A model generated the notes under the pieces. The model did not search any database. It had not been told where the DNA came from and was given only the letters and a program-made list of their open reading frames with translations. Below, one piece after another: positions 3,859-8,246 of a stretch of DNA of 12,485 nt. Source of the stretch: Oscillospiraceae bacterium. GTDB lineage: Bacteria > Bacillota > Clostridia > Saccharofermentanales > Saccharofermentanaceae. Numbering within the stretch: position 1 is the first letter of the stretch; each line of letters opens with the position of its first letter. The stretch covers positions 1 to 12,485 of the forward strand of contig CACXGG010000013.1 of assembly GCA_902767145.1 (NCBI GenBank), in the 5' to 3' direction. Position numbers and translations under genes: made by a program.

Positions 3859-4431
3859 ATGGAAAAGTACATCGTATCAGGAGAATTCAGTTCATCATCT
3901 CTTGAGGTTCAGGGTTATTCACTTATAGAAGTAGGAAAAGGAAAAGCAAAGAGTGAGAATTTCAGGGAGATGTCAGAAGTCAGCTTTGATCCCGAGAAGC
4001 TCCTGGATGCACTTGAGAATAAAGGTAATGTATATGCATATAAGAAGAAGGGTATCGTTAAGGCCCTCTATATCGTGAGATGGAGCGGAAACAGATATTC
4101 CTGCAATGAATGCTTCTATGCTCCCGATATAGAAGATGAGCCCGTGAAGGATCTCATGGATGCCCAGATGGCATTCCTCATCAGCCACAATTCCCTTAAT
4201 CTCTCCAAGGATGAAAGACCTGTCTTCAAGAATGCCGTAATGCCTGAGCTCAAGGTGAAAAAGGGCGGTTTTAACTGGGCCATGGGTGCCGCTTTTGCAG
4301 CTTTGTATGGAGTGATCTTTTCCCAGTCCCTGGGTAACATGACCGGATATCTTATCGGCATCCCCATGGGTATCTCCATGGGACTGTGCCTTCAGAACAA
4401 GACATATCACTATGATTTAACTGAGGCATGA
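3859..4431 (+). CDS. Uncharacterised protein with a C-terminal membrane hairpin
   Basis: The start is supported by GGAGG at 3847-3851, seven bases before the ATG. The 190-residue protein has a soluble N-terminal part (1-130) without signal peptide. It contains paired cysteines (SCNEC, residues 81-85) and lysine-rich beta-type segments. It ends in two Gly/Ala/Met-rich hydrophobic stretches (about 137-155 and 160-178) that look like a tight transmembrane hairpin (GAAFAALYGVIF and GYLIGIPMGISMGLCL). A membrane-anchored cytoplasmic domain is the simplest reading. It appears to have its own promoter, and another promoter for the ANL gene overlaps its end. I recognise no family. Confidence 0.75.
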   Translation: MEKYIVSGEFSSSSLEVQGYSLIEVGKGKAKSENFREMSEVSFDPEKLLDALENKGNVYAYKKKGIVKALYIVRWSGNRYSCNECFYAPDIEDEPVKDLMDAQMAFLISHNSLNLSKDERPVFKNAVMPELKVKKGGFNWAMGAAFAALYGVIFSQSLGNMTGYLIGIPMGISMGLCLQNKTYHYDLTEA

Positions 4432-6891: not shown

Positions 6892-8031
6892 TTATACTTC
6901 CGAATAGCTTCCCAGGAAGGTGAAGGCAGCCGGGTCATTGTCCAGCTGGCATAGCAGGGTCACAAAGGGTTCTGAGTAGATCGAGGCATCCACATCCAGA
7001 TAGAACATGAACTCGAAGTCCCTTCCGGAGATGGGCCTTGATTCGATCTTCGTAAGGTTAAGTCCCAGAGAGGAAAATCTTGCCAGGGTGTTGGAAAGGG
7101 ATCCGGGAGTGTGGTCCAGGGCCAGCATGATGGAAGCCTTGTTAGCGCCGGGATAGATCTCCAGATCCTTGGAGATGCAGATGAACCTGGTGTAGTTATG
7201 ATCGCTGTTCTGGATATCGTCCCTGATCACTTCAAGGCCATAGAGTGCAGAACAGTCCTGGGAGGAGATGGCAGCGATATCTGTCCTGTCGGAGTCTGCC
7301 ACCGCCTGTGCGGCCATGGCAGTGTTTTCCACTACCGTGACCTTGATGTCCCTGTTATCCTTGAGGAACCTGGAGCACTGGCCCAGGGCCTGCTCGTGGG
7401 AGACGATCTCCTTTATATCCTTGAATTCTGTTCCGGGCTTGGCCAGGAGACGGTGGCTTATCTGAAGCTTAAGGGACCTGATGATGTGGAACCTGTGTGA
7501 CTTCATAAGATCGTACACCTGGGTAACTGAACCGTAGGAGCTGTTCTCGATGGGGAGAAGGCCGTATTTGCAGAAACCGCTCTCAACCGCCTGGAATACT
7601 CCGTCGAAGGTCCTGAAGTACATGATGTCAGCACCGGGGAAGAGCTTGTCTGCCGCGATCTGTGAATATGCTCCCTCAACGCCCTGGCATGCCACAAGAG
7701 CGTTCTTGGGAAACTCTTTGGGAGTCTCCTTCAGGGCTTTGGCGATGATGTCTGCCAGCTCCGATCTCTTTGTAAGATTTGATGCGCTGTAGGAATGGGA
7801 AAGGTTAAACAGGGTCTGGAACATTACTCTCTCGCAGCTCTCGAGACTGGGGTCGCCGTCGTACTCTATGCCGTTTAGGATTTCCCTCTCGTATCTTCTT
7901 CCTGCAAGAGCTGCTTCGCTCCTTGTCATAACTGATTCAGATTCAGTGGTGAGCTTGAGCCTCTTTTCCACCAGTTCTGAGATCTCCCTGTCGATCCTTG
8001 CGATCTCGTTCTGTGTTTCCTGACTTACCAT
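6892..8031 (-). CDS. pheA: P-protein: chorismate mutase-like domain, prephenate dehydratase, ACT domain
   Basis: The 379-residue protein has the P-protein layout for phenylalanine synthesis (chorismate to prephenate to phenylpyruvate). Residues 5-85 are an AroQ-type chorismate mutase helix bundle. Residues 110-290 are prephenate dehydratase, with GVEGAYSQIAA (117-127), IENSSYGSV (161-169), SHEQALGQC (211-219) and the catalytic NYTRF motif (Thr281). Residues 298-376 are an ACT domain with TPGSLSNTL and ESRP (330-333), the usual Phe-binding feedback site. Aligned by eye with the E. coli enzyme, mutase Arg11, Lys39 and Gln88 correspond to Gln7, Met35 and Ser82, while Arg28 is Arg24, so mutase activity is doubtful. 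AAGGAG (complement of 8039-8044), seven bases upstream, fixes the start. A Phe-rich leader and attenuator precede it. Confidence 0.95.
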   Translation of the reverse strand: MVSQETQNEIARIDREISELVEKRLKLTTESESVMTRSEAALAGRRYEREILNGIEYDGDPSLESCERVMFQTLFNLSHSYSASNLTKRSELADIIAKALKETPKEFPKNALVACQGVEGAYSQIAADKLFPGADIMYFRTFDGVFQAVESGFCKYGLLPIENSSYGSVTQVYDLMKSHRFHIIRSLKLQISHRLLAKPGTEFKDIKEIVSHEQALGQCSRFLKDNRDIKVTVVENTAMAAQAVADSDRTDIAAISSQDCSALYGLEVIRDDIQNSDHNYTRFICISKDLEIYPGANKASIMLALDHTPGSLSNTLARFSSLGLNLTKIESRPISGRDFEFMFYLDVDASIYSEPFVTLLCQLDNDPAAFTFLGSYSEV

Positions 8032-8057
8032 GTTTTTTCTCCTTTTCCGTTTCCATC

Positions 8058-8091
8058 AAAAAAGCTCCACAGCGGTCTCACTGTGAAGCTT
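8058..8091 (-). terminator. Attenuator (intrinsic terminator) upstream of pheA
   Basis: On the - strand, AAGCTTCACAG (complement of 8081-8091) pairs with CTGTGGAGCTT (complement of 8062-8072) in an 11-bp stem with one G-U pair and an 8-base loop. A run of six U (complement of 8058-8063) follows at once. It lies after the leader ORF and before the pheA ribosome site, where an attenuator must be. Confidence 0.88.
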
Positions 8092-8120
8092 ATTGCGGTA
8101 CTTGTTTATCTACTCACAAT
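8080..8120 (-). promoter_or_regulatory. Candidate antiterminator of the pheA attenuator
   Basis: ATTGTGAG (complement of 8113-8120) can pair with TTCACAGT (complement of 8080-8087) with six Watson-Crick and two G-U pairs. This would use up the 5' arm of the terminator. ATTGTGAG begins just three bases after the leader stop codon. A ribosome that finishes the leader would cover it and let the terminator form, whereas one stalled at Phe codons would leave it free. The leader segment TTTCAC (complement of 8131-8136) could compete for the same GTGAG. Confidence 0.55.
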
Positions 8121-8123
8121 CTT

Positions 8124-8210
8124 TCAGGCAGTGAAACCGGACTTCGTTTTCGTAAAGAAAAACTCGAAGCCTGCAAAAAATCCAAAACCTGTAAAGACAT
8201 TGTGTTTCAT
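8124..8210 (-). CDS. pheL: Phenylalanine-rich leader peptide of pheA (28 residues)
   Basis: The - strand ORF starts MKHNVFTGFGFFAGFE and continues with FFF and a final GF before TGA (complement of 8124-8126). Nine of 28 residues are Phe (6, 9, 11, 12, 15, 17, 18, 19, 26), six of them encoded by TTT. It sits between a strong promoter and an intrinsic terminator in front of the phenylalanine gene pheA, exactly as PheL does in enterobacteria, whose peptide also begins MKH. The symbol is by analogy of function. The expected reaction is ribosome stalling when Phe-tRNA is scarce, which prevents termination. No Shine-Dalgarno precedes the ATG, and the -10 box ends only seven bases before it, so the leader seems to be translated from a leaderless 5' end. 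Confidence 0.85.
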   Translation of the reverse strand: MKHNVFTGFGFFAGFEFFFTKTKSGFTA

Positions 8211-8217
8211 GGGGTTG

Positions 8218-8246
8218 ATTATAAGACACGTTTTTTCGTTATGCAA
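8218..8246 (-). promoter_or_regulatory. pheA promoter
   Basis: On the - strand TTGCAT (complement of 8241-8246), a 17-bp spacer and a perfect TATAAT (complement of 8218-8223) form a good sigma-A type promoter. The usual start point, about seven bases downstream, falls at or next to the leader-peptide ATG. A GGTGAAA/TTTCACC inverted repeat (8262-8268 and 8293-8299) lies just upstream. Confidence 0.8.

Follow-up and report, generated by a model that had tools for sequence, protein, structure and literature searches.

The pheA locus

The window, that is, the whole analysed stretch of 12,485 nucleotides from an Oscillospiraceae bacterium (contig CACXGG010000013.1), carries on its minus strand the gene pheA, preceded by a promoter-like pair of hexamers, a small Phe-rich ORF and a terminator (Table 1). 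Residues 7-376 of PheA align with the model PRK10622 of the bifunctional chorismate mutase/prephenate dehydratase, with a score far under its cut-off. An earlier note on this DNA had described the TTGCAT and TATAAT hexamers, the leader ORF with nine Phe codons (one FFF and one FF run) and the pheA ribosome site, and all of these were confirmed in the window sequence. Its terminator was confirmed as well, with the U6 tract and a stem given there as 11 bp, for which we counted 10 bp, or 13 bp when the hairpin was folded. The note overlooked that the -10 box leaves no space for a ribosome site upstream of the leader. A divergent gene encoding a TSCPD-domain protein (TIGR03905; 8347-8604, plus strand) has the intergenic region in common with the pheA promoter.

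Table 1. Features upstream of pheA in the window, with positions in the numbering of the whole stretch.
Feature	Position	Strand	Remarks
-35-like hexamer TTGCAT	8241-8246	-	17 nt upstream of the -10 hexamer
-10 hexamer TATAAT	8218-8223	-	7 nt upstream of the leader AUG
Phe-rich leader peptide ORF MKHNVFTGFGFFAGFEFFFTKTKSGFTA	8124-8210	-	28 codons and TGA; no Shine-Dalgarno sequence
Antiterminator 5' element CGGUUUCACUG	8129-8139	-	within the last leader codons; partner 8083-8073
Terminator 5' arm	8079-8091	-	hairpin -19.1 kcal/mol
Antiterminator 3' element CAGUGAGACCG	8073-8083	-	upper 5' arm of the terminator, loop and first bases of the 3' arm
Terminator 3' arm	8062-8074	-	pairs with 8091-8079
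U6 tract	8058-8063	-	read in the window sequence
pheA ribosome site AAAAGGAG	8039-8046	-	7 nt upstream of the ATG
pheA, prephenate dehydratase	6892-8031	-	ATG at 8031; PF00800 at residues 113-289

The Phe-rich leader in relatives

We read 61 pheA loci, among them two without upstream sequence and two (L029, L030) from other families of the order, and found a Phe-rich leader at 50, of which 42 are distinct. One row was left out as a false leader (L054, which could not be aligned and has 5 Phe among 37 codons), as was the second copy of eight identical pairs, while L052, in which the pheA frame is too short in the sequence, was left out of the tree and of the pheA codon count. Allowing GTG and TTG in addition to ATG starts led to identical frames. 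The 42 distinct leaders comprise 17-30 codons with 5-10 Phe each, together 303 Phe in 957 codons (32%) compared with 5% in the window's pheA. Given this composition and the occurrence at 50 of 61 loci, the leader is more than a chance frame. A TTTACA (Phe-Thr) near the start is nearly invariant, and TTT makes up 79% of the Phe codons in the leaders compared with 9% in pheA itself at 41 of the loci with a leader, a bias that could partly stem from AT-rich sequence. Of the features that the earlier note had proposed to look for in an alignment of relatives, the Phe richness and the terminator pairing were retained, but its antiterminator pairing was not (see below).

The leader is absent at seven pheA loci of the genus, representing six distinct genomes: a clade of five (L026, identical to L057, L054, L055, L058 and L059) and L038. 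On a tree of 51 rows the presence of the leader changes three times, a pattern consistent with a single gain and two losses. A covariance model of the leaders matched in 66 of the 115 genomes of the family, all within one of its five genera, and in one of these genomes (G026) the sole match precedes glmS. Among 49 more distant pheA loci (L061-L110 without L067), a scan by Phe count found no upstream ORF of 8-60 codons with more than 4 Phe.

Terminator and antiterminator

Across the 42 distinct loci, 98.8% of the cells of the terminator helix are paired, nine of the ten counted pairs show changes on both sides, and at least nine of ten pairs are kept in 41 loci. The distance from the leader AUG to the U-tract is 133-158 nt. 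As antiterminator, the earlier note had proposed the complement of 8113-8120 with 8080-8087. This pairing of 8120-8113 with 8087-8080 (AUUGUGAG/UUCACAGU) does exist in the window, with 8 bp including two G-U pairs; with all 8 pairs counted, however, only 34.6% of the cells are paired, compared with 33.9% in shuffles and 31.4-48.3% in slid controls, and a 6-pair version was rejected likewise. Because its pairs are kept no more than in either control, we consider this assignment wrong.

The antiterminator that the alignment does support joins 8139-8129 to 8083-8073, with 85.7% of the cells paired compared with 33-56% in slid controls. Doubly changed cells numbered 40 compared with 17.5 in shuffles, and seven of the eleven pairs show double changes, a count only moderately exceptional, being reached in 9 of 500 shuffles; further pair types (16 compared with 14.4) were not exceptional, with 92 of 500 shuffles as high. 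Since the 42 sequences are related, the figures of the shuffle tests are inflated, those of the slid controls less so. The helix holds at least 8 contiguous bp in 40 of the 42 loci, a length that a shuffled element reaches in 4.9% of 2000 trials, and in L003 and L005 eleven pairs form with one bulge or mismatch. The duplex with short flanks in the window has a predicted energy of -17.7 kcal/mol. The comparison supports a terminator and an antiterminator that would be mutually exclusive, both with compensatory changes.

In the window, 17 nt separate the last core Phe codon from the start of the 5' element, and this spacing is 16-21 nt in 37 of the 42 loci. The exceptions are L013 and L021 with 24-25 nt, L051 with 9 nt, and L003 and L005, which the geometry script put on the wrong helix. 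The element ends no more than 15 nt from the first stop base in 39 loci, L003 and L005 included; it ends 24 nt past that base in L008 and L009 and 17 nt past it in L019, beyond the expected footprint. Counted from the start of the A-site codon, a ribosome covers about 13 nt. Leaders of 27-30 codons contain the element within their ORF, and leaders of 19-23 codons have it at the stop or immediately behind it; with either length, a ribosome at the stop codon would usually cover the element and one stalled at the Phe codons would leave it free. The 26th codon of the window's leader, within the element, is itself a Phe codon.

Promoter position

An exact TATAAT stands 6-9 nt upstream of the leader AUG in all 42 distinct loci, at 6 nt in 19, 7 nt in 19, 8 nt in three and 9 nt in one (thus 6-7 nt in 38 and 8-9 nt in four), and the stretch that separates it from the AUG is free of ribosome-site-like 4-mers in all 42. 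In three loci (L003, L006, L025) a ribosome-site-like 5-mer directly precedes or overlaps TATAAT. The best -35 hexamers of the relatives, searched at 15-19 nt, are TTGNNN- or TTTACA/T-like with 3-5 consensus matches. The conserved position of the -10 box argues that the pheA leader ORF is probably leaderless, its mRNA beginning at the first base of the ORF; we infer that transcription starts at the leader AUG or no more than 1-2 nt away from it. In three loci without the leader (L038, L055, L059) TATAAT lies 7 nt upstream of pheA's own ATG, and L026/L057 and L058, also without it, have an ordinary, longer pheA upstream region.

In genome-wide counts, TATAAT-N6/7-ATG was more frequent than TATAAT-N13/14-ATG in 32 of 35 genomes of the genus (3003 compared with 2356), compared with 12 of 24 in other genomes of the order (1236 compared with 1232). 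This excess is modest, at about 18 sites per genome, and suggests that leaderless mRNAs may be a wider habit of the genus.

Related leaders at other genes

We located a DAHP synthase gene in 19 of the 20 genomes of the genus searched, in each followed within about 170 bases by a prephenate dehydrogenase gene, and a Tyr/Phe-rich leader precedes this aroF-tyrA pair in 18 of the 19. In the window's own genome the aroF leader reads MSKKFFENAYYYYFYFGDNK (L274, upstream of 1501; G000:C26, aroF at 4364); a leader with a terminator was found there and in 17 of the 18 other genomes of the genus that have the gene. A helix of at least 11 bp between the stop-codon region and the terminator is present in 11 of the 18 leaders, and in the other seven no helix beyond chance was found. 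Judged by eye, 15 of the 18 have a ribosome site, while in L275 and L276 a TTTAAT stands 7 nt upstream of the AUG in its place. The leader of L281 (G020:C27) looks broken, with a short frame after the start that misses the Tyr run.

A class-wide search of 391 genomes with two models returned 17 matches at E 0.001 and 15 at E 0.01. Phe/Tyr-rich leaders were found upstream of DAHP synthase-like genes in ten genomes of six other families, and in G436 upstream of a chorismate mutase/prephenate dehydratase-like gene, the gene names at these loci (L235-L239, L252-L257, L261; an example leader begins MKNQLFAFAYFYFYFYF) being judged by eye from the start of the protein. A scan of 20 loci gave no match to any Rfam leader family. 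The matches in G315, G325, G496, G207 and G243:C39 were judged spurious by eye.

An attenuator of the same layout was also seen upstream of glmS in nine genomes of the genus (L243-L251, e.g. L248:498-639). Its leader reads MK(I/M)IWFISY(A/E)YAL... and has a TAAAAT box 6 nt upstream of the AUG, and an element resembling UAUUCACUGC pairs, by eye, with a terminator arm resembling GCAGUGAAUA. In a survey of 20 genomes, 19 of which had a readable glmS start, this attenuator occurred only in G009, and no glmS ribozyme reached the cut-off in those 19 loci.

Proposed mechanism and alternatives

Comparison of the loci finds the Phe frame, the terminator, the antiterminator, their spacing and the position of the promoter conserved. 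The earlier note had proposed that ribosome-mediated attenuation acts on pheA, and its proposal gains support from the kept Phe frame, the terminator, the exclusive antiterminator and the geometry of the elements. We consider it highly probable that pheA is under Phe-sensing, ribosome-mediated transcription attenuation, an estimate that refers to the attenuator and not to the leaderless step. Against it speak the pheA loci of the genus that lack the leader, the loci in which the spacing or the end of the element deviates, and the Phe codon within the element. The transcript start, the leaderless translation, the stalling and the response to Phe are what we infer from this arrangement. RNA polymerase would start at or beside the leader AUG, and the ribosome would begin on the leaderless 5' end. 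When charged tRNA-Phe is scarce, the ribosome would stall in the Phe run and leave 8139-8129 free to pair with the upper arm and loop of the terminator (8083-8073) as these emerge; the terminator could then not nucleate and pheA would be transcribed. When Phe is plentiful, the ribosome would reach the stop codon and cover the element, so that the terminator would form and transcription would end near 8058. A separate protector hairpin would not be needed in such an attenuator, because the terminating ribosome itself would mask the element.

Classical leader-peptide attenuators include a protector or pause (1:2) hairpin, and a four-segment attenuator of the PheL/TrpL type, with such a hairpin and the antiterminator of the earlier note, would account for the Phe-rich leader, the terminator and the 8-bp pairing, all of which are present in the window. 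We tested two candidates for the hairpin. UUCAC:GUGAG was not kept, with 36.5% of the cells paired compared with 37.9% in shuffles. UUUAC:GUAAA speaks for the arrangement in that it is paired in 72.1% of the cells and three of its five pairs are doubly changed, a number reached in 25 of 500 shuffles, but its share of paired cells does not exceed that of the shuffles (71.6%), and one slid version has 65.9%. The proposed antiterminator is not conserved, and we regard the four-segment arrangement as improbable. Somewhat less improbable, albeit still unlikely, is that the attenuator is the same but a transcript starting further upstream supplies an ordinary ribosome site for translation of the leader, TATAAT not being the promoter used. 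The AGGAG-like ribosome sites of the aroF leaders and the 5-mers near TATAAT in L003, L006 and L025 would agree with this. Nevertheless, TATAAT keeps its place close to the AUG in every distinct locus with no ribosome-site-like 4-mer behind it, stands equally close to the ATG of pheA in three loci that have no leader, and shows the same short spacing in excess in the genus and not in the other genomes of the order.

That the small ORF encodes a working peptide, or one that arrests the ribosome through the nascent chain, in place of stalling at Phe codons, would explain the conservation of certain positions other than Phe, for example in the Phe-Thr close to the start. This reading is very unlikely in view of the 32% Phe composition, the variable length of 17-30 codons, the retained spacing between the Phe codons and the element, and the Tyr/Phe-rich sister leader upstream of aroF-tyrA. 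Control of pheA by a T-box or a metabolite riboswitch, with the ORF as an accident, has in its favour that every one of 59 genomes from the genus contains T-box matches, which in 53 of them exceed the cut-off. The window's genome has six T-box matches elsewhere; a match at its trpE, with 82.8 bits and E 1.1e-17, is below the cut-off of 93, and eight of 20 trpE loci reach the Rfam cut-off at which those beyond the window's genome were scanned. At the window's pheA, however, the Rfam scan found neither a T-box nor any other family at the cut-offs, and with E values up to 10 the four families returned were unrelated and scored low (best E 0.12), with no leader-peptide family among them; moreover, only 133-158 nt lie between the AUG and the U-tract in the 42 loci. 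We give this last explanation hardly any credence and retain Phe-sensing attenuation by a leader peptide as the preferred reading.

Relation to known attenuators and significance

In the PheL/pheA attenuator of enterobacteria (Rfam Phe_leader), a Phe-rich leader peptide is followed by a terminator and an exclusive antiterminator. The leader described here has these three parts upstream of pheA in common with it. It differs in belonging to another phylum, in lacking a ribosome site, with a -10 box 7 nt from the AUG, in an antiterminator that recruits the terminator's loop together with its upper arm, and in that neither of the two tested 1:2 hairpins is clearly conserved; the Rfam covariance model does not match it even at E up to 10. 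The aroF-tyrA and DAHP synthase-like leaders of Clostridia resemble it in an aromatic-rich leader peptide and a terminator, and 11 of the 18 aroF-tyrA leaders of the genus also in the long pairing between stop region and terminator, but those of the genus encode Tyr in addition to Phe, precede another operon and mostly have a ribosome site.

Leader-peptide attenuation is already known, including His leaders in Firmicutes. His leader-peptide attenuators were described at hisS and hisZ in bacilli (PMC2965389) and at his genes in the B. cereus group, in Peptostreptococcaceae such as C. difficile and in Erysipelotrichales (PMC9413887). The statement of the earlier note that Bacillota mostly control amino acid genes by T-box riboswitches agrees with the T-box matches in every genome of the genus, but these His leaders qualify it. 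They have in common with the pheA leader that a leader peptide with cognate codons takes the place of a T-box in Firmicutes; their amino acid is histidine and their genes are others, and the passages that describe them do not mention leaderless starts. For mycobacteria, Cys-rich leaders (Shell 2015, PMC4633059) and leaderless poly-Cys attenuator ORFs (Canestrari 2020, as cited in PMC9031893) were reported, and a study of actinobacterial leaders (PMC1262725) reported that a conserved terminator hairpin is absent upstream of the mycobacterial cys operons. Like the pheA leader, the poly-Cys ORFs are rich in the regulatory codon and, according to the cited work, leaderless; unlike it, they belong to Actinobacteria, use Cys and, as that study reported, come without a conserved terminator hairpin. 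Among the matches listed in PubMed Central, a coverage that leaves subscription papers outside, no title or abstract opening reported a clostridial leader peptide for Phe or Tyr. A leaderless Phe leader of this kind, from Clostridia and with no clearly conserved protector hairpin, is probably new.

Taken together, the data are compatible with a wider reading, to which we give an even chance: in this lineage of Clostridia, leader-peptide attenuators may take the place of T-boxes in the control of the Phe/Tyr branch (pheA, aroF-tyrA), and their design would comprise a leaderless ORF, one element that is either masked by the terminating ribosome or invades the terminator loop, and no protector hairpin. 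The module might be re-usable, an attenuator with this layout preceding glmS in nine genomes; the start of the leader might switch between ribosome-site-led and leaderless. If this is true, leader-peptide attenuation would govern the synthesis of both Phe and Tyr in little-studied gut Clostridia, and the T-boxes used elsewhere, trpE included, would provide a natural comparison of two sensors inside one cell. Furthermore, the arrangement suggests a regulatory role for leaderless initiation in Bacillota and would give a minimal attenuator of two helices, in which the masking ribosome stands in for the protector hairpin. The Tyr/Phe leaders at DAHP synthase-like genes of other families suggest that such leaders may have been overlooked in Clostridia.
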